Below, in pieces: positions 32,443 to 46,365 of a stretch of 64,000 bases of DNA. The notes under the pieces are model-generated. The model was not told the origin of the DNA and made no database searches. It saw nothing but the letters and a program-made list of their open reading frames with translations. Made by a program: the position numbers and the translations under genes. This DNA is from Bacillota bacterium (lineage in GTDB: Bacteria; Bacillota; SHA-98; UBA4971): contig JANLFY010000009.1 of assembly GCA_024653485.1 (NCBI GenBank), positions 62,001 to 126,000 of the forward strand, written 5' to 3'. Position 1 is the first letter of the stretch; each line of letters starts with the position of its first letter.

Positions 32443-32679
32443 CGCCTTCCAAGCGCCCGAGCGTCACCACTACGCCGTGCCACCGTCGTCGCAGCTCGGT
32501 GGGTTCAAGACAACTGCGATCCGGCTGTTCGGACTACGCCGCCGCACGCCGTATTGCCAAACCTAGTCAGCAAGAGCGCCTCAGCCTGAAGGTCAAGGGC
32601 CCGCCTGCCGTCAGGTCTGGAAGGAAACGCGCCGAGTCTCGGAGAAACCCCCTATAACCTAAATCATGGGGTGACAGAG

Positions 32680-34677
32680 ATGCCCGATATCGCGCTCATA
32701 GCGCCGTATGACAACCTCGCCACGGTGGCTCAGGACGTCCTACGCAGCATTGGAAAGCCTGTGAGAGTAGAGCGCGCGCTATTGGGCGACGCGCCAGAGG
32801 TCGCGCGGCGTCTCAAGAAAGAAGGGGTGCAGGTCCTGATCAGCCGCGGCGGGACAGCGCTCATTCTTCAAGACGCTCGCGACCTGGGCCTTCCCGTAGT
32901 GGAGATCCGAGTGACCGCCTACGACGTGGTTCGGGCTGTTGCACGGGCAAAGTGCTTCGGCCGCCACATAGGCATCGTGGGCTTCGAGAACATGGTGCTG
33001 GGGGCAAGCACGCTGAGCGACGCCATGGACGTGGACATAAAGGAGTTTCTCCTGGAACGGGCCCTGGACGCGGATAGAATGGTGCGAACCGCAATTGATG
33101 ACGGGGTCGATGTCCTCATAGGCGGCGTGATCACGGTGAGGACCGCCGAACGGCACGGCGCCAAAGCCGTCCTCATAGAGTCCGGTCCCGAGGCCGTCAG
33201 GCAGGCCATTGATGAAGCACTTCGTGTCTTGTGGGTGAAGAAGCACGAGATGGCTCGGACAGAGCAATTCAAGCTCATCGTAGATAACGTATCAGACGGA
33301 ATCATCTCTGTAGACGCCGCAGGACACATCACGGTATTCAACGAGGCAGCCGAGCGACTGACCGGCCTTTCCGTCGCCGATGCAATGGGACGCCACGTGA
33401 GCGAGGTTCTACCTGGCGTTGACTTCGCCGGAGTCCTGGCGACCGCCTCGCAACGGCAGAGCGGCCATCGTGAGCACCCTGCCGGCTCTCGACCGCGGCC
33501 TGCAGCACCTGAAGTGTGCCGCGTGAACGGAACCCTCGTCAGCGTGACTCGCGTGGCCATCATAGTCGACGGTCTGTGTGTGGGAGCGATCGGCACATTC
33601 CAGGACATCGGCAGACTACAGGCCCTGGAGAAGGACCTCCGCAAACGTCTTTATGCCCGTGGCCACGTGGCTCGGTTCACGTTCGGAGACGTTGTGGGGG
33701 GTAGCAGCGCGATCCAGGCCACTGTCGCAAAGGCGAAACGGTTCGCGAGCGTCGACTCCACGGTCCTCATTCTCGGAGAGACGGGAACGGGAAAAGAGCT
33801 TTTCGCCCAGAGCATCCACAACGCAAGCGCCAGGCGTGACGGGCCGTTCGTCGCCGTGAACTGCGCCGCGCTTCCGGAGAGCCTGCTTGAGAGCGAACTG
33901 TTCGGGTACGTTGAAGGTGCCTTCACAGGAGCCAAGCGAGAAGGGAAACAGGGTCTGTTTGAGCTAGCTCACCACGGAACGATCTTCCTCGATGAAATCG
34001 GTGGCATGCCTTTGCGTCTCCAGGTTCGCCTTCTCAGGGTCCTCCAGGAAAGGGAGGTCATGCGGCTCGGCGACGACCGAACTATACCAGTGGATGTCCG
34101 CATAATCGCCGCCTCAAACAAGGACCTTCGCAAGCTCGTTGCGGAGGGTGTCTTCCAACCGGATCTGTACTACCGCCTTGATGTCCTCAAGCTAGTAGTA
34201 CCTCCCTTGCGCGACCGGCGGGAGGACATACCTCTTCTCGCGAACGCGTTCGCGAAGACTCTATCGCGCAAGCTGGGAAAGGCTTTCCAAGGTTTCGCCA
34301 ACGAAGCCCTTTCTCTTTTGTCGGCTCACGCATGGCCCGGCAACGTAAGAGAGCTAAAGAATGCCGTGGAGAAGTGCCTGGTTCTCTCCGATGACGGGAT
34401 CATCACACCGAGCCACGTGCTTGACGCCTTGGGGGAAGACTCAGTTTCGTCCACTGGTGGCCTGGATGACCCGACCCAACTCCGAGCAGACCTCCAGAGC
34501 CTTGTCAAGGCGGCAGAACGCGAAGGCATCGCCCGTGCCATCCGAGAGTGTCACGGCAACAGAAGCGAGGCCGCTCGTCGCCTCGGAATCGATCGCACCA
34601 CGCTGTGGCGCAAGCTGAGAAACGACACCGCCAGCCAACATCACAGCGCACGCCGAGACAGCAGCCCGGGCTCATAA
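32680..34677 (+). CDS. Sigma-54-dependent activator with PrpR N-terminal domain
   Basis: About 665 residues from ATG at 32680 (GTG at 32671 is possible). Domains in order: a PrpR_N sensor domain (about 1-185; ISRGGTALILQD, GIVGFENMVLGASTLSDAM); PAS (about 195-320; IVDNVSDGIISVDAAGHITVFNE); AAA+ sigma-54 interaction domain (Walker A GETGTGKELF, GAFTGA in VEGAFTGAKREG, Walker B GTIFLDEIGG, and RVLQEREVMRLG); and a Fis-type HTH (GNRSEAARRLGIDRTTLWRK). All parts needed to melt a sigma-54 promoter are intact. PrpR_N domains sense organic acids or CoA derivatives. The nearest target is the -24/-12 promoter just downstream of this gene, ahead of larA. Confidence 0.95.
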   Translation: MPDIALIAPYDNLATVAQDVLRSIGKPVRVERALLGDAPEVARRLKKEGVQVLISRGGTALILQDARDLGLPVVEIRVTAYDVVRAVARAKCFGRHIGIVGFENMVLGASTLSDAMDVDIKEFLLERALDADRMVRTAIDDGVDVLIGGVITVRTAERHGAKAVLIESGPEAVRQAIDEALRVLWVKKHEMARTEQFKLIVDNVSDGIISVDAAGHITVFNEAAERLTGLSVADAMGRHVSEVLPGVDFAGVLATASQRQSGHREHPAGSRPRPAAPEVCRVNGTLVSVTRVAIIVDGLCVGAIGTFQDIGRLQALEKDLRKRLYARGHVARFTFGDVVGGSSAIQATVAKAKRFASVDSTVLILGETGTGKELFAQSIHNASARRDGPFVAVNCAALPESLLESELFGYVEGAFTGAKREGKQGLFELAHHGTIFLDEIGGMPLRLQVRLLRVLQEREVMRLGDDRTIPVDVRIIAASNKDLRKLVAEGVFQPDLYYRLDVLKLVVPPLRDRREDIPLLANAFAKTLSRKLGKAFQGFANEALSLLSAHAWPGNVRELKNAVEKCLVLSDDGIITPSHVLDALGEDSVSSTGGLDDPTQLRADLQSLVKAAEREGIARAIRECHGNRSEAARRLGIDRTTLWRKLRNDTASQHHSARRDSSPGS

Positions 34678-34935: not shown

Positions 34936-34950
34936 TGGCACGCCACTTGC
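34936..34950 (+). promoter_or_regulatory. Sigma-54 (-24/-12) promoter for the larA-tct-dmlA operon
   Basis: TGGCACGCCACTTGC matches the sigma-54 consensus TGGCAC-N5-TTGC at every conserved position, with the correct GG-GC spacing. It lies 150 bases upstream of larA in the 34678-35099 intergenic region, right after a sigma-54 activator gene. An ATGTTG/CAACAT inverted repeat (34806-34811 and 34856-34861) about 75-130 bp upstream is a possible activator-binding site. Confidence 0.88.
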
Positions 34951-35099
34951 GAACGTCTTACGGTGATGCATGGTCGCCGCTACTACCCTCTCCCGGTCCC
35001 CAGTGAGACCGGACGAGTGAGCTGGGTCCGTGCACCAAGCTGAACGAGACGTCTACAGAGGAATCGGCGACGCGACTTTGAAGGCGAGGTGATGTTCCC

Positions 35100-36398
35100 G
35101 TGGTTCTGGACTTGAGGTATGGCCGGTCCAGCGTCTCCCTAGACTTGGACAAGCTCGGAAAAACCCAAGTCCTGCTGGGCAAGGAGGCCGAACGCCTTCC
35201 AGATCTCCGTGCTGAGGTTCTCCACAAGCTCAGATGCCCGACGGGCGTCCGCAGCCTTGTCGAAGAAGTGACACGCACGCGAAGCAGAAGGGTCGCTATC
35301 ATCGTCAACGACGTCACCAGGCCTACACCCTACGCCGACGTCTTGCCACCCCTTCTAGGCGAAATCCGAAGGGCGGGCGTGCCCGACACCCACGTGACGC
35401 TCGTCGTCGCTACCGGGATCCACCGCGGGATGACAGCCGAAGAGCTCCGGCTGACACTGGGCGGGGACGTCTGCGACAGGTACGAGGTCGCAAATCACGA
35501 TTGCGACGACCAGACCCGCCTGGTCCATCTCGGTCGGCTCAGCTTCGGAACGGAGCTCTATGTGAATCGACTCGTGCTCGAGGCGGACTTCGTCTTGGCC
35601 ACCGGGGTCATCTCGCCCCACTACTTCGCTGGATTCTCCGGCGGCAGGAAAGCAATACTTCCAGGCGTATCAGGTCGAGGCTCCATCTCACACAATCACT
35701 CCCTCATGACCTCCAAAGCGGCCACTGTGTGCAACCTGGAGGGAAACCCGGTCCACATCGAGATGGTCGAAGCCGCACGCAAGGTCGGTGTGCATTTCAT
35801 CGTGAACACAGTGACCGATGGGCTTGGAAAGACGGCGGGTGTAGTGGCGGGTGACGTTGAGAGTGCGTGGCTCGAGGGAGTGGAGATGTGCTCGCGTTTC
35901 GTCGTTGCCCCTGTGGCACGGGAGGTTGACGTGGTGATTGCCAGCGCGGGCGGGTTTCCAAAGGACATCAACGTCTATCAGGCGCAGAAGGCCATCGACA
36001 ACGCCGAACGCGCGACGAGACGCGGAGGCACCATCGTGCTTCTGGCTGAGTGCCCGGAAGGATGCGGAGAGCAGACCTTCGAGAGTTGGATGATGAACGC
36101 GCAGAGCCTTGATGACATCTTCAGCCGCTTCGCCGCCGGGTTCGAGCTTGGGGGGCACAAGGCGTACAGTCTGGCCAGAGTGCTGCGGGATAAGGAAGTA
36201 ATCCTGGTCTCCTCTCTCGACCAAGCCTTCGTGCGAAAGCTCTTCATGACCCCCGCCAGGAGCCTTGATCAGGCGCTCGAGATGGTAAGGTCAAAGCATG
36301 GGAGCGAGTATGAGTCAGTCGTGATGCCGTGCGCAGGAAACGTTATCCCCGTCCCGGGAGGTGATGTCGAGGATCGTCCCATACTGCAGACCCCTTGA
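35100..36398 (+). CDS. larA: LarA-family nickel-pincer 2-hydroxyacid racemase
   Basis: 432 residues, usual for LarA. Conserved pieces: IVNDVTRPTPYADVLPPL, VVATGIHRGMTAEEL, SPHYFAGFSGGRKAILPGVS (with the pincer-linking Lys region and catalytic His), HNHSLM, and FPKDINVYQAQKAIDNAE. LarA-type enzymes use a nickel-pincer nucleotide to epimerise 2-hydroxyacids; besides lactate, relatives act on malate and other acids. LarB, LarC and LarE, needed to make the cofactor, are not in the window and must be elsewhere. GTG start with GAGGTGA upstream. Being first in an operon with a tricarboxylate transporter and a D-malate-type dehydrogenase, malate or tartrate is a likelier substrate than lactate (inference). 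Confidence 0.9.
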   Translation: MVLDLRYGRSSVSLDLDKLGKTQVLLGKEAERLPDLRAEVLHKLRCPTGVRSLVEEVTRTRSRRVAIIVNDVTRPTPYADVLPPLLGEIRRAGVPDTHVTLVVATGIHRGMTAEELRLTLGGDVCDRYEVANHDCDDQTRLVHLGRLSFGTELYVNRLVLEADFVLATGVISPHYFAGFSGGRKAILPGVSGRGSISHNHSLMTSKAATVCNLEGNPVHIEMVEAARKVGVHFIVNTVTDGLGKTAGVVAGDVESAWLEGVEMCSRFVVAPVAREVDVVIASAGGFPKDINVYQAQKAIDNAERATRRGGTIVLLAECPEGCGEQTFESWMMNAQSLDDIFSRFAAGFELGGHKAYSLARVLRDKEVILVSSLDQAFVRKLFMTPARSLDQALEMVRSKHGSEYESVVMPCAGNVIPVPGGDVEDRPILQTP

Positions 36399-36458
36399 CG
36401 CTGTGTGGAAACGAAGTCGAACTGCGACGAACACACGAACTTCAGGGAGGTAAGGGAA

Positions 36459-37424
36459 ATGCGCCTTGTAACGAGAGTCGTTGCGGTGTGCGTGGTCGTT
36501 TCGCTGACTCTGATCGGTTCCGTGGTGTCCGCAGCCGCGAAGTTTCCCGAGAAACCCGTAAACTATCTGATTTGCTTCGACCCCGGTGGAGAGTCAGACA
36601 TAACGGCGCGGCTGCAACAGCCTTTCCTCGAGCAGGTCCTTGGGGTGAAAGTGGTCATCTCGTACAAGACCGGAGGCGGAGGCGCCGTCGGCTGGTCAGA
36701 GCTGGTACGCTCGAAACCCGACGGGTACACGATGGCGGGAGACAACTTGCCCCATACGATACTCCAGCCGTTGCAGCGCGGAGACGCGGGGTACAAGACC
36801 GAGCAACTCAAACGAGTCTATTGCTTCGAGAGTACCCCGAACGCCCTCGTCGTAAGGAAGGATAGCCCCTTCAAGACACTCAAGGACCTCGTAGACTACG
36901 CCAAGGAGCACCCGGAGGTGGTGACCCTCGGGGGTAGCGGGAGCTGGTCCGCCAACCACTTAGGCGTTCTCGAGCTCAATCAGGCGGCCGGTATCAAGTT
37001 GACCTACATACCATTCAGCGGCTCGGGCGCAGTCGTCCCCGCGTTGCTCGGAGGCCACGTAACAGGACTCATGACGTACACGACTATGGCTGTTCAGTAC
37101 AAGGACCAAATGCGTGTGCTGGCGGTCGCGGCTGAGAAGCGCTCGGCTGTCTTGCCTGACGCTCCCACGTTCAGAGAGCTTGGCTACGACATAGTTGAAG
37201 GAGCGTATCGAGGAGTCTCCGTTCCCCCGAATACACCTGATGACATCGTCAAGATACTGGCCGACGCATTCGATAAGGTAAACCGCAACACGGACTTTCA
37301 GAAGAAGATGCAGGAGATGGCGTTCGATCTCGAGTTCATGGGGCCCGAAGAGTACGAGAAGTTCGTTCAGTCGAGGCGTCCCTACTATGAGAAACTCCTC
37401 AAGGACCTCGGCGTGCTGAAGTAG
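36459..37424 (+). CDS. tctC: Tripartite tricarboxylate transporter substrate-binding protein (TctC/Bug)
   Basis: About 321 residues from ATG at 36459 (GGGAGG 8 bases upstream). A signal peptide is visible (VTRVVAVCVVVSLTLIGSVV, then AAA-KFPEKPVNYL). The mature protein has the Bug-family pattern: P-KPVNYLICFDPGGESDITAR, VVISYKTGGGGAVGWSEL, GGSGSWSANHLGV, PFSGSGAVVPALLGGHV and a C-terminal lobe ending YYEKLLKDLGVL. It captures carboxylates outside the membrane and hands them to TctAB. The ligand cannot be read from sequence. Confidence 0.93.
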   Translation: MRLVTRVVAVCVVVSLTLIGSVVSAAAKFPEKPVNYLICFDPGGESDITARLQQPFLEQVLGVKVVISYKTGGGGAVGWSELVRSKPDGYTMAGDNLPHTILQPLQRGDAGYKTEQLKRVYCFESTPNALVVRKDSPFKTLKDLVDYAKEHPEVVTLGGSGSWSANHLGVLELNQAAGIKLTYIPFSGSGAVVPALLGGHVTGLMTYTTMAVQYKDQMRVLAVAAEKRSAVLPDAPTFRELGYDIVEGAYRGVSVPPNTPDDIVKILADAFDKVNRNTDFQKKMQEMAFDLEFMGPEEYEKFVQSRRPYYEKLLKDLGVLK

Positions 37425-37544
37425 GCGAAGTGCACGAGGACGTGCGAAGCGTGGCGCGCACAGTCGGGGCAGGTCCGCGGACTCCCCCGCCTGCCCCGAC
37501 CCTCGGTCGGAATCACAGTCAGCCAGGTGAGGATGGTGATACGA

Positions 37545-39068
37545 ATGGACGCTATAGTGTCCGGGATTATCCAGGTTCTGTCTCCCGGCAATCTCCTCTT
37601 GATGCTCGCAGGCACCGTCGGCGGCCTCATCGCAGGCGCGCTGCCAGGTCTCACGGCCACGATGGCGGTCGCCCTCGTAATCCCATTCACGTTTGTGTTG
37701 CCGCCGTTGACCGGCCTCGTGACAATGGGCGCAATCTACATGTCGGCGATATACGGTGGCAGCTTCTCCGCAATACTCATCAACACGCCGGGGACTCCCT
37801 CATCGATCGGGACTTGTTTCGACGGTTATCCCATGGCAAAGGCCGGTAGGGGTCAGGAAGCCATAGTCGTCGCCACGATATCCTCGGTCATCGGCGGGCT
37901 GTTCGGGATCGCCGTGCTTGCCTTCCTGGCGCCGCCCCTTGCTCGCGTCGCCCTGCGGTTCGGCCCTCCCGAGTACTTCTGGGTCGGCATCTTCGGGCTC
38001 AGCGTAATATCGAGCCTTGCATCGAAGTCGGTCCTCAAAGGGCTCGTCGCCGGGGCCGTAGGTCTCTTGATAGGTATGGTCGGCATCAGTCCCGTCGGAG
38101 GAAACGTGCGTTTCACGTTTGGTGAGCCGGCCCTACAAGGCGGAGTCCAACTGGTATGCGCCCTCATCGGGCTGTTCTGCATACCCGAAGTCCTTTCGCT
38201 TGTGCTCCAGGGAGCGCAGGCCTATGAAGCCGTGCGTCTCGGGAAGCAGAAAGGCGTCATCAGGTCGACGGTACAGAAGGTGTTGCGCCAGCCGGGAAAT
38301 CTCTTGCGTTCCAGCGTAATCGGGACGATCGTGGGCATCGTGCCAGGCGCGGGCGGCAACATCGCCAACCTCATAGCGTACAACGAAGCGGTGCGTGCTT
38401 CGAAACACCCTGAGAAGTTTGGCACCGGGATCATTGATGGCCTGATCGCCACCGAGACATCCAACAACGCTACTGTCGGAGGCGGGTTGATTCCCCTTCT
38501 CACCCTGGGAGTACCGGGTACACCTGTGGACGCCGTCATATACGGAGGCCTTCTGCTCCAAGGGCTCCGACCCGGGCCAGAGCTGTTCCGGTTGCATGCT
38601 GATATCACGTACGGTTTCATTTTCTCTCTCTTCATCGCCACCCTCATGATGCTGGCGGTGGGCCTCGCCGTGGGGACAGCTCTTCACAGACTCGTATCGC
38701 GCATGCCCTTGAGATTCCTCGCTCCATCCATAGTCTTCCTGAGCATAATCGGGTCATACGCAATTCGAAACAACATGACGGATGTGTGGGTCATGCTCGC
38801 GTGTGGAATCATAGGGTACGTCCTCAAGGAACTCGACTTCAACCCAGCCCCGATAGTGCTCGGCCTCATCCTCGGGCCAATCATCGAGGAGGGTCTCTTA
38901 CAGTCGCTTCTCATCTCAAGGGCGTGGCAGCATCCCTGGCTCGTATTCGTCAGGAGTCCCATATCGATCATCCTGATCCTCATGACGCTGATTTCGTTTG
39001 CATGGCCATACTTGTCATACTCCGCGGGGCGTCGTCGACGGAAGGAGGGCGCATATGTCGAGCGGTGA
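37545..39068 (+). CDS. tctA: Tripartite tricarboxylate transporter large membrane subunit TctA
   Basis: About 507 residues from ATG at 37545 (frame open from 37527), with 11-12 hydrophobic helices. The TctA signature GTVGGLIAGALPGLTATMAV occurs near the start and is mirrored by GTIVGIVPGAGGNIANLIAY mid-protein. INTPGTPSSIGTCFDGYPMA and TLGVPGTPVDAVIYGGLLLQ are the paired substrate-path loops. It forms the Na+- or H+-driven permease with TctB. It overlaps the tctB start by 14 bases. Confidence 0.94.
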   Translation: MDAIVSGIIQVLSPGNLLLMLAGTVGGLIAGALPGLTATMAVALVIPFTFVLPPLTGLVTMGAIYMSAIYGGSFSAILINTPGTPSSIGTCFDGYPMAKAGRGQEAIVVATISSVIGGLFGIAVLAFLAPPLARVALRFGPPEYFWVGIFGLSVISSLASKSVLKGLVAGAVGLLIGMVGISPVGGNVRFTFGEPALQGGVQLVCALIGLFCIPEVLSLVLQGAQAYEAVRLGKQKGVIRSTVQKVLRQPGNLLRSSVIGTIVGIVPGAGGNIANLIAYNEAVRASKHPEKFGTGIIDGLIATETSNNATVGGGLIPLLTLGVPGTPVDAVIYGGLLLQGLRPGPELFRLHADITYGFIFSLFIATLMMLAVGLAVGTALHRLVSRMPLRFLAPSIVFLSIIGSYAIRNNMTDVWVMLACGIIGYVLKELDFNPAPIVLGLILGPIIEEGLLQSLLISRAWQHPWLVFVRSPISIILILMTLISFAWPYLSYSAGRRRRKEGAYVER

Positions 39069-39495
39069 CCGCATAGCCGCTTTGGTAGTGATGGCCGTGG
39101 CAGTCATCTTCGGCGTCCAGCTCAGAGGCCTTGAGAGCGCGGATGCCCTGTTCCCGAAATGGGTCCTTGCGCTAGCAGTCGTGATGTCCGTCTGCCTGCT
39201 CATCATGACGCTGACTGGGAGGAGTCCGCAGAAACCCCTGAAGCTTCCGAACATGCGAACCCTCGGGATGGCTGTAGGACTCATGATCTCATGGCTCATT
39301 CTCATTCCGATCGCAGGGTTCTACGTAGCAAGCGTGCTGGTGTCCACCGTCTTCGCGGTGCTTGTTGACAGCAGAGTTCGTCAGCCTCAAGCCCTCGCGA
39401 CTTCATTCGCTGTCATCGCCATCGAGATCGGTGTTTTCTATGCAGTCTTCGCCAACCTGCTCGATGTCCCCTTGCCTCCCGGTTTGTTGTTCTGA
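39055..39495 (+). CDS. tctB: Tripartite tricarboxylate transporter small membrane subunit TctB
   Basis: 146 residues from ATG at 39055 with GGAGGG 5 bases upstream. Four hydrophobic helices (RIAALVVMAVAVIFGVQL, WVLALAVVMSVCLLIM, GMAVGLMISWLILIPIAGFY, SFAVIAIEIGVFYAVFANLL) and the length match TctB. Gene order here is C-A-B rather than the common C-B-A. Confidence 0.88.
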   Translation: MSSGDRIAALVVMAVAVIFGVQLRGLESADALFPKWVLALAVVMSVCLLIMTLTGRSPQKPLKLPNMRTLGMAVGLMISWLILIPIAGFYVASVLVSTVFAVLVDSRVRQPQALATSFAVIAIEIGVFYAVFANLLDVPLPPGLLF

Positions 39496-39588
39496 AGAGG
39501 CCTGAGGGGCGGACGAGCAGTGGCGCGCGGGTATGCGCAACCACGTCAGGCGCAAAGTTGACGGAAACACGTTTGGGGGATTGCAGAC

Positions 39589-40671
39589 ATGGACAACATG
39601 AGCATAGCTGTGATTCCGGGCGACGGAGTCGGTCCCGAAGTGACCGCGGAAGCGGTCAAGGTGCTGAGGGCCGCCGGCGAAGTACATGGGGGAATGGCGC
39701 TGACTTTCGTGGAGTACTCCTGGGGCTGCGAGTACTATCTGAAGCAGGGTCGCATGATGGATGAACACGGCCTTGACGCGCTTAGAGATCACCACGCCAT
39801 ACTCCTGGGGGCGGTCGGAGCTCCCGGGTTGGTTCCAGACCATGTTTCCCTCTGGGGTCTCCTGCTTCCAATCCGCAAGACCTTCGACCAGTATGTGAAC
39901 CTCAGACCAGTGAAGCTGCTTCGCGGCGTCCCTGGGCGACTCGTGGGCAAGGGCCCGGAAGACATCGACTTCGTGGTCGTCCGCGAGAACACAGAGGGGG
40001 AGTACTCGGGAGTCGGAGGCAGGGTGCACGTCGGAACGCCGTTCGAGGTCGCCATTCAGAGCAATGTGTTCACGCGTCACGGAACGGAGCGTGTCGTCAG
40101 ATATGCCTTTGAGCTGGCAAGAAAGCGCCAGAAGGCGAGGCGCGTCATATCCGTTACGAAATCGAATGCCTGCAACTACAGCATGGTGTTCTGGGACGAG
40201 GTCTTTCACACCGTGGCAAGAGACTACCCAGACATTGAGGCGGTACAGACCCACGTAGACGCAGCGGCCATGTACGTGATCACCAAGCCGGAGTGGTTCG
40301 ATGTGGTCGTCGCGACGAACCTCTTTGGAGACATCCTGACGGACGAGGGCGCGGCAATCCAGGGCAGTATCGGCCTTGCAGCAGGCGCAAACCTGAACCC
40401 GGAGAGGAAGTACCCATCGATGTTTGAGCCGATCCACGGCTCGGCGCCTGACATAGCCGGCAAAGGGATAGCGAACCCCATCGCCACGATCTGGGCCGCC
40501 GCCATGATGCTGGATTTCCTGGGCTACGAGGATGTCGGGGCCTTGGTCATGTCCGCCATAGAACGGACTCTCCTCGACGATGCGCCGAAGCCGTTCGACC
40601 TGGGTGGAACGGCGACCACGTCTGAGGTAGGCGATGCGGTATGCGAGAGCCTTTACCGGCTAGCGGGGTAA
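39589..40671 (+). CDS. dmlA: D-malate/tartrate-type decarboxylating dehydrogenase
   Basis: 360 residues of the isocitrate/isopropylmalate dehydrogenase family. IPGDGVGPEV and EYSWGCEYYLKQGRMM, GAVGAPGLVPDHVSLWGLLLPIRK, NLRPVKLL, VVRENTEGEYSGVGG and the metal/NAD region VVVATNLFGDILTDEGAA and FEPIHGSAPDIAGKGIANP are closest in pattern to TtuC/DmlA (tartrate/D-malate dehydrogenase), not LeuB. The reaction would be NAD-dependent oxidative decarboxylation of D-malate to pyruvate and CO2, or the tartrate equivalent. It ends the sigma-54 operon and would consume the D-isomer made by LarA. Confidence 0.9.
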   Translation: MDNMSIAVIPGDGVGPEVTAEAVKVLRAAGEVHGGMALTFVEYSWGCEYYLKQGRMMDEHGLDALRDHHAILLGAVGAPGLVPDHVSLWGLLLPIRKTFDQYVNLRPVKLLRGVPGRLVGKGPEDIDFVVVRENTEGEYSGVGGRVHVGTPFEVAIQSNVFTRHGTERVVRYAFELARKRQKARRVISVTKSNACNYSMVFWDEVFHTVARDYPDIEAVQTHVDAAAMYVITKPEWFDVVVATNLFGDILTDEGAAIQGSIGLAAGANLNPERKYPSMFEPIHGSAPDIAGKGIANPIATIWAAAMMLDFLGYEDVGALVMSAIERTLLDDAPKPFDLGGTATTSEVGDAVCESLYRLAG

Positions 40672-41982: not shown

Positions 41983-42735
41983 TCAGCTCATCCGGCCGCA
42001 GACCGGACAGTTGGGGTCGCGCGCGGCGACCACCTCTCGCCATGCCATCGCGAGCCCATCAAACAGAAGCAGCCGCCCGACGAGAGGTTGTCCCAGCCCC
42101 AAGATCACCTTGATTGCCTCAAGGGCCTCGATGCTGCCTATCACACCCGGGACCGCCCCCATGATCCCAGCCTCGCGGCACGAAGGCACCGCCCCCGGAG
42201 GAGGGGGTTGCGGGAACACACACCGGTAGCAGGGGCCTTGCCCGGGGATGACGGTCAGCACCATGCCGTCGAATCTCATCACGCCCGCCTCGACCAGTGG
42301 CTTGCGAGCCTCCACGCACGCGTCGTTCACGAAGTACCTGGTCTCGAGGTTGTCCACGGCATCCACGACCACATCGTATGGCTCAATGAGCGCGGCCGCG
42401 TTCTTGTCAGTGACAGCCATCCGATGCGGCACCACGTGGACCCCGGGGTTGAGCCGCGCCAGCGCTCGTCTCGCCGACTCCACCTTTGGGAGGCCCAGCT
42501 CGTCAACACCATGCAGAATCTGCCTTTGCAGGTTGGACAGTTCCACCGCGTCTGAATCCACCAGTCCGAGAGTCCCCACTCCCGCGGCGGCGAGGTACAT
42601 GGCCACCGGCGATCCAAGGCCGCCCGTCCCCACCACGAGCACCTTGGCCGCGTGCAGCTTCGCTTGGCCCGCCTCCCCTACCTCGGGCATCACAAGCTGC
42701 CTGGAATAGCGCATCCTCTCCTCGCTTGTGAGCAT
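41983..42735 (-). CDS. moeB: MoeB/ThiF family adenylyltransferase
   Basis: 250 residues, full-length E1-like enzyme. RYSRQLVMPEVGEAGQAKL at the start, the ATP loop VLVVGTGGLGSPVAMYLAAAGVG, LSNLQRQILHG, DAVDNLETRYFVNDAC, and the zinc-binding pairs CYRCVFP and CPVCG are all present. It adenylates the C-terminal glycine of a MoaD/ThiS-type protein for sulfur transfer. In this window the partner is probably the MoaD-like protein at 58.3 kb, serving molybdopterin or tungstopterin synthesis for the oxidoreductases here. It lacks a C-terminal rhodanese domain. Confidence 0.92.
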   Translation of the reverse strand: MLTSEERMRYSRQLVMPEVGEAGQAKLHAAKVLVVGTGGLGSPVAMYLAAAGVGTLGLVDSDAVELSNLQRQILHGVDELGLPKVESARRALARLNPGVHVVPHRMAVTDKNAAALIEPYDVVVDAVDNLETRYFVNDACVEARKPLVEAGVMRFDGMVLTVIPGQGPCYRCVFPQPPPPGAVPSCREAGIMGAVPGVIGSIEALEAIKVILGLGQPLVGRLLLFDGLAMAWREVVAARDPNCPVCGRMS

Positions 42736-42999
42736 GTCCTCATCACCGCCCGCGCACTTTCCTCCTCGGTCGCCCTCGGCCGAGGCGTCCGTCCCTGGCA
42801 GAGGCCATGCGGCACCCGCACCCGCACCCGGCCCGACTGTCCGGCGTGGCTGCGCCTCGCAATGCCCGGCAGACCAGGCGGACCCATCTGCCTCTCAATG
42901 ACACCGGACCGAGCTGCGATCCGCCCGGTCCGGCCCGCAACCGGTCTTCCCGTTCCGGCTTGCGACGCGCTGTCGCATTCCGTGCATGAGAAACTTGAG

Positions 43000-44526
43000 T
43001 CACGAGCAACCCGCTCTCGCCAAGACCCGCCGAAGCGCTCTCGTTGCCTCACGTAGTACTTCATTTTCGTCAAGAGACAGGAGTCTCCTCCCGTACATCA
43101 AGACACGCCCGTCCACTATGGTCGTGTCCACGTCTGAAGCGTTGGCTTCGTACACCACCCGCGACACCACGTCCACACCCTCTCCTGGAGCCGCATGAGG
43201 CGCTTCGAGGTCGAGCACCACGACGTCGGCTCGCTTTCCCGGCTCTATGCTGCCAATCTCGTGTTCCATGCCCATGGCCCGTGCCCCACCGATCGTCGCC
43301 ATCTCGAGCACAGTCTGAGCCGGCATGGCGGCGGGCCCCAGACGGACCTTCTGTATGAGAGCGGCATGGCGCATCTCCTGGAACACGTCGAGGTTGTTGT
43401 TGCACGGCGCGCCGTCGGCGCCTATGGACACGGACACTCCCATGTCGAGCATCTCAGGCACTTTCGCGATCCCCGAAGCGAGTTTCAGGTTCGACGACGG
43501 GCAGTGCACGACCTTCGTGCCGGAATCGCGCAGGATCGCCATTTCCTCGTCGTCCAGCCAGATGCAGTGAGCGAGCACGAGGTTCGGCCCGGTGAGTCCC
43601 AACTCGCGCAGGCATACCAGGTTCCTCATGCCTCTGTCTCGCCAAACGACCTCTATCTCGCCGCGGTTCTCCGACGCGTGCGTGTGCACGAGGACCCCCG
43701 CCTCCTTCGCCATGTCGCGCACGCGCACGAGGAGCCTATCCGAACACGATACCACGAACCTCGGTGCGAAGGCGTAGCGTATCCTGCCGTCATCGTGCAT
43801 GTGCCACCGATCGAGAAGGGCCTCGCTTTCGCGGAGAGAGTCCTCGGTGGATTCCATGAGGCTCGACGGTACGTCCTTGCCCCAATCCATCATGACTTTT
43901 CCGGACGCGGCACGGATGCCGGACGAGTCGATCGCCCAAAACGCGCTCTCAGTGTGGTGAACGGTCTCCATGTCGATGACGGACGTGGTCCCGCCTTTCA
44001 CGAGCTCCGCAATGCCGAGCATGGCAGACCAATACACGCTCTCCTCATCGTGAGCGCCTTCCAACGGCCATATGCGCTTCTTCAGCCAGTCCAGGAGCTC
44101 GAGGTCGTCAGCCTGTCCCCTGAAGAGGGTCTGGCAGAGGTGCACGTGCGCCTGGACGAACCCCGGAAGCACAACCTTTCCGTACGCGTCTATCACTATG
44201 TCCACGTCATGTCTGTGAGCCCCGGTTGGAAGCACGTGAACCTCCGCACCCATCGCCTCGCCGTCGTCCGCGAAGCGCTGCATCGCGTCCTGCCGTGCCC
44301 ACGCTGGTTCAACGTCCCCCCCTCGAGGGCTCGTGCCTCCCTGAAGCGCGTCACCCACCCATTGCACTCTCTCAAAGCCGAGGCGCTTCATGCTTGCTGA
44401 CGAGGAGCCCTCGCGCGTGACTTGGGCTATGCGGTGCCCATCTATGAGGACGTCAGCGCAGTCAAGCACTTCGCGCTCTCGGTTCATGGTCACAACGGTT
44501 CCGCCGCGAATGAGGATCTTCGCCAC
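43000..44526 (-). CDS. Amidohydrolase, 5'-deoxyadenosine/SAH deaminase-like, with N-terminal insertion
   Basis: 508 residues against about 430-440 for this subfamily. The extra part (roughly residues 42-108: REGSSSASMKRLGFERVQWV through AHRHDVDIVI) interrupts the N-terminal beta-sandwich. The TIM-barrel motifs are intact: metal-binding HVHLCQTLFRGQADDLELLD, HTHASEN, AHCIWLDDEEM and IGADGAPCNNNLDVFQEMR. That pattern fits deaminases of 5'-deoxyadenosine, S-adenosylhomocysteine or methylthioadenosine and related chlorohydrolases. GTG start abuts the AOR stop codon, so it is the last gene of hydA-fdx-AOR and shares their purine riboswitch, which suits a purine-nucleoside deaminase. Confidence 0.85.
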   Translation of the reverse strand: MAKILIRGGTVVTMNREREVLDCADVLIDGHRIAQVTREGSSSASMKRLGFERVQWVGDALQGGTSPRGGDVEPAWARQDAMQRFADDGEAMGAEVHVLPTGAHRHDVDIVIDAYGKVVLPGFVQAHVHLCQTLFRGQADDLELLDWLKKRIWPLEGAHDEESVYWSAMLGIAELVKGGTTSVIDMETVHHTESAFWAIDSSGIRAASGKVMMDWGKDVPSSLMESTEDSLRESEALLDRWHMHDDGRIRYAFAPRFVVSCSDRLLVRVRDMAKEAGVLVHTHASENRGEIEVVWRDRGMRNLVCLRELGLTGPNLVLAHCIWLDDEEMAILRDSGTKVVHCPSSNLKLASGIAKVPEMLDMGVSVSIGADGAPCNNNLDVFQEMRHAALIQKVRLGPAAMPAQTVLEMATIGGARAMGMEHEIGSIEPGKRADVVVLDLEAPHAAPGEGVDVVSRVVYEANASDVDTTIVDGRVLMYGRRLLSLDENEVLREATRALRRVLARAGCS

Positions 44527-46365
44527 CTACGCCACTCCCTTCTCCTCTATTCCGAGTTCCTCGAGCTTCTCGCGGGTGGGAACGCCGTCTTTGGTCCAGC
44601 CTCGCTCGGAGTAGTACTCGGGAAGCAGCTCCCCAAGATTGACCGTAACTCCTTTCGCCGGCCCCCCGGGGAGGCCTTCCTCTAGGAACCGCCTCGGAAG
44701 AGTGTCATCGCGCGGCGTCATGCCGCACCTTAGATTGAACGCCCTTTCCGTATTGACTATCCTCTCACCTATCGATAGGAGCTCGGCCTCGGAGTGCTGT
44801 CGCCCGGTCGCGAATGTCAGGAGATCCGCCACATCCCGGGGCAGGATGGCATATGTCGCGAACGTGCAGTACTTGCATATCTCCGCAGAGTCGCACACGG
44901 CGCCATAGTTCTCATGCCATATTACCATGCCCACCTTGCCCTTTTCCGTGTACGGGTTGACGCAATCGGGGGTTCCGAACCAACGAATCCCCTCCTCCCT
45001 CGTCTTGCTCAGGAGCTCAAAGTTCGGAAGAGCCCGCAGGTGGTCGCCGCCTCTGCTCGCCACGGCCTCGCCGAGAGCGAATCCTTTGCCTGTTCGCACA
45101 TCAAACGCCGGAAGCTCGAGCCCCTTCACGTGGAGAGCGAACCCTTCGCTCCCGGGAATCTCGGAGGACATCGCCTTGACGCCCTTCGCCAACAGCGCCC
45201 CTACGCCGTCGCGACGGGCGATCTTGTGGAGGCACTCGATAACGAAGTCCGCATCGCCCCACTCGTACTCCTCATCGATAAGACCGCGTTGAGAGCACTC
45301 CATGAGGAACGCGATGCTCGTGCCTGCGGAGATCGTGTCGATCCCATAGTCGTTGGCGAGCTGATTGGCCTTGAGGATCGCGTCGAGTGAGCCCACGCCC
45401 ACTCTGCTTCCAAGCGTGACCATTGTCTCGTACTCCGGGCCCATGTTCTCGCATTCGTACGGCCCGCTCGGAACGCGAGCATAGTTCTTGCAGTGGAGTA
45501 TGCACGAGAAACACGCTTTCGAAGCGAGTTTGTATGTATCTTGGTACACGTGGCTCGAGATCTCATCGTAACGATCAAACAAGCCGAGCTGCGCGTTCTT
45601 CGTGGATAGACCCCCGCTCGCCTGGGCGATGTCCACGAGGATGAGCGTTCCGTACTCGGAGAAGTCAGCGTAGGTCGGATCCGCCATGAGCTTCGTGTGA
45701 CACTCGCGGACCTTCGCCAGGAACCTCTCGTCGTCAGCCACGGGGATGTCTCCTGATCCACGCACCGCGACGGCCTTCAGGTTCTTCGACCCCATCACTG
45801 CTCCGACTCCGGTGCGCCCCGCGGCGTTGTGGCCCGCTGCCATGATGTTCGCGTAGGGGACCAGGTTCTCACCCGCCTGGCCTATCGCGATGACCTTGAT
45901 GTCCTTCCCATGCGTGTCTTCAAGGAGTCTTGTGGTGTCGAACACGCCTCGTCCCCAGAGGTGCGACGCGTCGCGCAGCTCCACATAATCGTCTTCGATG
46001 AATAGGTACACGGGACGCTTCGCCTTTCCGCGGATTATCACGGCGTCGTACCCCGCGAAGCGCAGCTCGGGACCAAAATGCCCCCCGGAGTTGGCGTCCC
46101 CGAGGAGCCCTGTGAGCGGCGAGCGGCATCCAACGGTGAACCTACCAGACGAGGGGGAGAGCGTTCCGTCGAGCGGACCTGTCGCGATGGTTAGGACGTT
46201 CTCGGGGGATAGGGGGTCGACATCAGCACCGACGAGATCATAGAGGACTTTGGACGTGAACCCGCGGCCTCCCAGGTACCCTGACCGCCACTCCTCGGGC
46301 ACCCTTGACTTGCGCGCGCAGCCGCGAGTGAGATCCACCCAGACGAGCCTTTCCACATGCGACAC
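44527..46365 (-). CDS. aor: Aldehyde:ferredoxin oxidoreductase family protein (tungstopterin)
   Basis: 612 residues, typical AOR. N-terminal domain VERLVWVDLTRG, LGGRGFTSKVLYDL, GPLDGTLSPSSGRFTVGCRSPLTG and GRTGVGAVMGSKNLKAVAVRG; the cluster ligands in CFSCILHCKNY (C-x2-C-x3-C) with a distal Cys in CVNPYTE or the following region; and the pterin-binding helical domains (DYGIDTISAGTSIAFLMECS). It oxidises aldehydes to acids, reducing ferredoxin, or runs in reverse. GTG start with GAGGTGA upstream. The adjacent polyferredoxin and [FeFe] hydrogenase look like its electron route. Substrate unknown. Confidence 0.93.
   Translation of the reverse strand: MSHVERLVWVDLTRGCARKSRVPEEWRSGYLGGRGFTSKVLYDLVGADVDPLSPENVLTIATGPLDGTLSPSSGRFTVGCRSPLTGLLGDANSGGHFGPELRFAGYDAVIIRGKAKRPVYLFIEDDYVELRDASHLWGRGVFDTTRLLEDTHGKDIKVIAIGQAGENLVPYANIMAAGHNAAGRTGVGAVMGSKNLKAVAVRGSGDIPVADDERFLAKVRECHTKLMADPTYADFSEYGTLILVDIAQASGGLSTKNAQLGLFDRYDEISSHVYQDTYKLASKACFSCILHCKNYARVPSGPYECENMGPEYETMVTLGSRVGVGSLDAILKANQLANDYGIDTISAGTSIAFLMECSQRGLIDEEYEWGDADFVIECLHKIARRDGVGALLAKGVKAMSSEIPGSEGFALHVKGLELPAFDVRTGKGFALGEAVASRGGDHLRALPNFELLSKTREEGIRWFGTPDCVNPYTEKGKVGMVIWHENYGAVCDSAEICKYCTFATYAILPRDVADLLTFATGRQHSEAELLSIGERIVNTERAFNLRCGMTPRDDTLPRRFLEEGLPGGPAKGVTVNLGELLPEYYSERGWTKDGVPTREKLEELGIEEKGVA

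Follow-up and report, generated by a model that had tools for sequence, protein, structure and literature searches.

A putative sigma-54-controlled operon with a malate-type LarA racemase in a Bacillota genome without detected LarB, LarC and LarE

Results

Organization and conservation of the operon

The window analyzed here, a 64-kb stretch of a Bacillota genome that is 98.9% complete, contains five intact, co-oriented genes on the plus strand that were identified with Pfam and NCBI models: larA (35100..36398; Lar_N, 3.1e-64; LarA_C, 1e-23); tctC, encoding a solute-binding protein (36459..37424; TctC PF03401, 1.1e-47); tctA, encoding a large permease subunit (37527..39068; TctA PF01970, 1.8e-147); tctB, encoding a small permease subunit (39055..39495; TctB PF07331, 6e-12); and a gene for a DmlA/TtuC-type D-malate/tartrate dehydrogenase (decarboxylating) (39589..40671; Iso_dh, 1.9e-94). 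The longest tctC reading frame opens at 36405, and its likely true start is the ATG at 36459, which is preceded by AGGGAGG; likewise, the longest tctB frame opens at 38998, and the likely true start is the ATG at 39055, preceded by AAGGAGG. TctC, TctA, and TctB occur together, as in a tripartite tricarboxylate transporter (TTT). All three subunits of known TctCBA systems are matched, with the differences that the window set is paired with a racemase and that its ligand is a prediction.

The first-pass annotation had proposed these five genes as an operon (34936-40671), and the model matches and the conserved gene order bear this out. The boundaries it drew hold for the five genes and miss an upstream plus-strand gene (32671..34677) for a PrpR-type sigma-54 activator with PrpR_N, PAS, sigma-54 AAA, and Fis-type HTH (HTH_8) domains, which also precedes larA in relatives. 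This activator gene is part of the conserved operon unit. Between the activator gene and larA, a motif scan predicted a perfect sigma-54 -24/-12 promoter element, TGGCACGCCACTTGC (34936..34950, plus strand), whose first base is position 34936. It is the sole zero-mismatch match in the 64 kb, where ≈0.15 such sites are expected by chance per window and ≈0.0005 in the intergenic stretch. In each of the seven relatives examined, larA is preceded by a site with 0-1 mismatch to the element, and no sigma-70-type promoter was found inside the operon. The locus thereby appears to combine the two parts of a sigma-54-dependent operon, a -24/-12 element and an enhancer-binding activator, and its genes apparently form one conserved, sigma-54-regulated unit.

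The order of the six genes from activator to dehydrogenase recurs in three genomes of the same genus (G002, G004, G005) and in two of a sister genus (G007, G012), which implies that the arrangement is not due to chance. The activator gene is split in G007, and in G001 the operon stops at a contig end after tctC. Across the conserved units of the two genera, identity is 81-90% for the dehydrogenase and 57-77% for LarA; the related records are uncultured Bacillota MAGs. In G003 (L037 2369-3162), the operon lacks most of tctC, tctA, and tctB, which is either a true deletion or an assembly error. Adjoining the operon on the minus strand (window 41983-46365) are genes for a ThiF/MoeB-type adenylyltransferase, an amidohydrolase (5'-deoxyadenosine deaminase model), and an aldehyde ferredoxin oxidoreductase.

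The racemase is probably of the malate type

The window LarA scored 509 bits against the NCBI malate-racemase model NF052593 (LarAH6/Mar2), a margin of just 9 bits over the cut-off of 500, and 359 bits against the lactate-racemase model NF033504, below the cut-off of 460. The catalytic residues His108, His174, and Lys298 and the NPN-binding residues Arg75, Lys184, and His200 (LarA numbering) are kept in the window protein and its orthologues. Where LarA has F175/F176/W358/T359, the window enzyme reads Y-F-H-K, with His353-Lys354 at the last two. H/Q-K at the W358/T359 positions is the published malate-racemase signature, and the first two positions are variable (PMC11770544); the signature is therefore present in the window LarA. 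Identity as a lactate racemase was rejected on the model score and on these residues.

The nearest solved structure is Mar2/LarAH6 of Thermoanaerobacterium thermosaccharolyticum (PDB 6d6z, 7s91), both by sequence (8.8e-86) and by Foldseek E-value (2.1e-44, 35% identity), the Foldseek query being a predicted LarA model of pLDDT 87. Mar2 and the window LarA share the catalytic and NPN residues and the substrate-surrounding Q, F, L, G, H, and K; Lys173 of the Mar2 loop is replaced by Phe (the second loop residue), as in lactate racemase. Unlike Mar2, the window LarA lies in a TTT and DmlA operon with a sigma-54 element, in a genome without detected NPN biosynthesis genes. The LarA of the Lactiplantibacillus plantarum lar operon (larA with larB, larC, and larE) belongs to the same racemase family and shares the NPN-binding residues, whereas the window enzyme is dicarboxylate-type and LarB, LarC, and LarE were not found in its genome. 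Taken together, the model score, the residue signature, and the cross-phylum context described below support a putative malate-type rather than lactate-type racemase. The first-pass annotation had also argued for a dicarboxylic acid substrate, a reading that these data favor and that is not new, because malate racemization by LarA homologues has been published for Mar1, Mar2, and LarAH62.

The dehydrogenase resembles tartrate and D-malate dehydrogenases

The dehydrogenase exceeded both of two tartrate-dehydrogenase models, scoring 533 bits against TIGR02089 (cut-off 470), and it fell short of the LeuB model TIGR00169 (259 versus 353 bits). It also passed the 3-isopropylmalate dehydrogenase model NF002898 (424 bits, cut-off 393), at 88-109 bits under its scores with the two tartrate dehydrogenase models. 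LeuB identity was rejected on TIGR00169, though the NF002898 cut-off was exceeded, and the earlier assignment to the DmlA/TtuC type is upheld by TIGR02089 and TIGR00169. We take the enzyme to be kin of E. coli DmlA. Its best solved match is TtuC (PDB 3flk), and the motif RENTEGEYS is common to both. Unlike TtuC and DmlA as compared here, the window dehydrogenase is encoded with a nickel-pincer racemase, and its substrate is predicted. The other Iso_dh gene found in the source genome is isocitrate dehydrogenase-like and lies near an aconitase-like gene.

Neighborhoods of related racemases point to a C4 dicarboxylate

Similar partners accompany LarA in other phyla. A Pseudothermotoga locus (L160) joins TctA-TctB (and the end of TctC) and malic enzyme with LarA; Atribacteria loci (L105, L120) join a malate-type LarA with L(+)-tartrate dehydratase alpha/beta, a TRAP transporter, a DmlA-type dehydrogenase, and a PrpB-like lyase; and in a Deltaproteobacteria locus (L112) LarA directly follows TctC-A-B. 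Within Bacillota, G243 (L171 2202-15000) carries TctC-B-A, a 2-oxoacid oxidoreductase, a malate-type LarA, and malic enzyme in one run. The same run also holds a second, divergent LarA and a dihydroxy-acid dehydratase, and this genome is without LarB, LarC, and LarE. Among 80 related LarA loci, DctM-like genes occurred at 12, fumarase/TtdA-like genes at 10, TctA at six, DmlA at six, and malic enzyme at five, these being raw counts, with no background rate, from loci that are not independent of each other. The neighborhoods support a predicted C4 dicarboxylate substrate and favor neither malate nor tartrate. The malate/tartrate route suggested earlier therefore stands as regards its C4-dicarboxylate setting, and sequence does not decide between its two substrates.

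Tartrate as the true substrate, with LarA making meso-tartrate from L- or D-tartrate and the TtuC-type enzyme continuing towards glycerate, is an unlikely reading that nonetheless deserves consideration. The dehydrogenase models carry tartrate names, published malate racemases epimerize tartrates too, with lower efficiency, and L(+)-tartrate dehydratase accompanies this pair of enzymes in the Atribacteria clusters. Moreover, the source genome has two malic-enzyme-type (Malic_M) genes, and racemization of L-malate may thus be unnecessary, which favors tartrate or D-malate. Set against this are the preference of LarAH62 for malate over tartrate by >50-fold in kcat/KM and the presence of malic enzyme and a TTT transporter beside the Pseudothermotoga and G243 racemases. 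Malate remains the likelier substrate. The two Malic_M genes also eliminate a missing malic enzyme as the reason for a racemase route; hence, no malic-enzyme bypass is shown to be needed, and the earlier suggestion that the pathway bypasses malic enzyme is weak, although G007 has the operon and no Malic_M genes.

Genes for NPN cofactor biosynthesis were not detected in the source genome or its family

To our knowledge, no pathway to the nickel-pincer (NPN) cofactor has been described other than the one formed by LarB, LarC, and LarE. No match over cut-off to LarC (TIGR00299, PF01969), LarB (NF033503), or LarE (TIGR00268) was found in the source genome, which thus lacks the gene set of an NPN-making organism, and the three proteins were likewise absent over cut-off from the other sampled family members (LarC being searched in all but G011 and G012). 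The same searches succeeded strongly in G015-G018 and in the named control genomes. On reading of their sequences, the best weak matches to LarB and LarE in the source genome look like PurE, whose gene neighbors a PurC-like one, and NadE and were rejected as overlooked pathway genes; two further weak LarE matches fall below the cut-off. The absence of larB, larC, and larE, which the first-pass annotation had overlooked, leaves the cofactor supply of the racemase unexplained.

The source genome has two more Lar_N matches, on contigs C2 and C5. The C2 paralogue (L048 9411-10871) keeps the key residues, and the C5 paralogue has diverged and carries Arg in place of K298. The surroundings of the C2 paralogue read like sugar transport and alcohol dehydrogenase.

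LarA without LarB, LarC, and LarE recurs among sampled Bacillota

We sampled 299 Bacillota genomes, each at least 95% complete, and counted Lar_N matches with E up to 1e-40 (our own threshold) as strong. Such matches were present in 151 of the 299, and LarC was missing in 35 of these. LarB and LarE were searched in those 35 and in seven more family members, the 116 LarC-bearing genomes being left out; in this set LarB was found only in G267 and LarE exceeded its cut-off only in G267 and G058. Thus, 33 of the 151 LarA-bearing genomes (about a fifth) lack LarB, LarC, and LarE. Four of the 33 are single-contig genomes (G036, G178, G212, and G297). The one contig of G036 (C1) holds 10 Lar_N matches, with LarB, LarC, and LarE giving none over cut-off.

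We checked LarA intactness in 15 of the 33 genomes, at 20 loci in all, and at the two paralogue loci of the source genome. R75, H108, H174, K184, and H200 are conserved in the sampled LarAs that aligned; at K298, G118 has Arg and the second G243 protein has Ala, and the G179 sequence runs into a contig edge before reaching this position. The LarAs sampled from these 15 pathway-less genomes therefore appear mostly intact. By model score, G212 encodes a strong lactate racemase (664 versus 460 bits) and G297 and G243 encode strong malate racemases (569 and 533, respectively, versus 500 bits). Near LarA at the 20 loci and the two paralogue loci, chiefly lactate-utilization genes recur, and no convincing gene family for an NPN importer was found; a Ni/Co-type ECF set, named by eye, lies near LarA in one pathway-less genome.

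Discussion

We propose that the locus probably serves the catabolism of a C4 hydroxy-dicarboxylate under sigma-54 control; malate is the most likely substrate, followed by tartrates. Weighing against this reading are the 9-bit margin over the malate-racemase cut-off, the Phe in place of Mar2 Lys173, the two Malic_M genes, and the missing cofactor pathway. Its transport substrate, substrate identity, reaction direction, and regulation are those we infer from the genes. The PrpR-type activator would sense a metabolite and fire the -24/-12 promoter; TctC would bind the acid outside, and TctA and TctB would import it. The LarA-type enzyme would then invert C2, by proton-coupled hydride transfer on the NPN cofactor, converting L-malate to D-malate, or L- or D-tartrate to meso-tartrate. 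Finally, the DmlA/TtuC-type dehydrogenase would carry out an oxidative decarboxylation of D-malate to pyruvate, or take tartrate towards glycerate.

For the racemase to be active with NPN, the cell would have to obtain the cofactor externally or by a route not yet described. More widely, active sites kept without the known biosynthesis genes suggest NPN acquisition, an unknown route, or changed chemistry. We consider it an evenly balanced proposition that many anaerobes, including this one, keep working NPN-dependent racemases by importing NPN or a late precursor from neighbors or by using an undiscovered route. Use of another cofactor or catalysis of another reaction by the racemase would explain the absent larB, larC, and larE; the retention of all NPN-binding and catalytic residues and a predicted fold that matches NPN enzymes make this quite improbable. 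A non-functional remnant, as the lack of a known cofactor supply might suggest, is more doubtful still. The active site is intact, the operon is conserved in two genera, and divergence is biased to third codon positions: the window larA differs from its G002 orthologue at 18, 12, and 53% of codon positions 1, 2, and 3, respectively, and by this measure is under purifying selection.

The reverse pattern, genomes with LarB, LarC, and LarE and without LarA, has been reported (PMC11796402). Among the papers we consulted, none described LarA without LarB, LarC, and LarE, a pattern that may already have been published elsewhere.

With this operon, malate-type nickel-pincer racemases acquire a specific context in an uncultured family, in which a predicted uptake system, racemase, and decarboxylating dehydrogenase stand under a putative sigma-54 switch. 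The cofactor gap is the larger point. NPN may be acquired from neighbors, an undescribed route may supply it, or the enzymes may work differently; LarA without its pathway would imply that the cofactor is exchanged, that another pathway exists, or that the chemistry differs.
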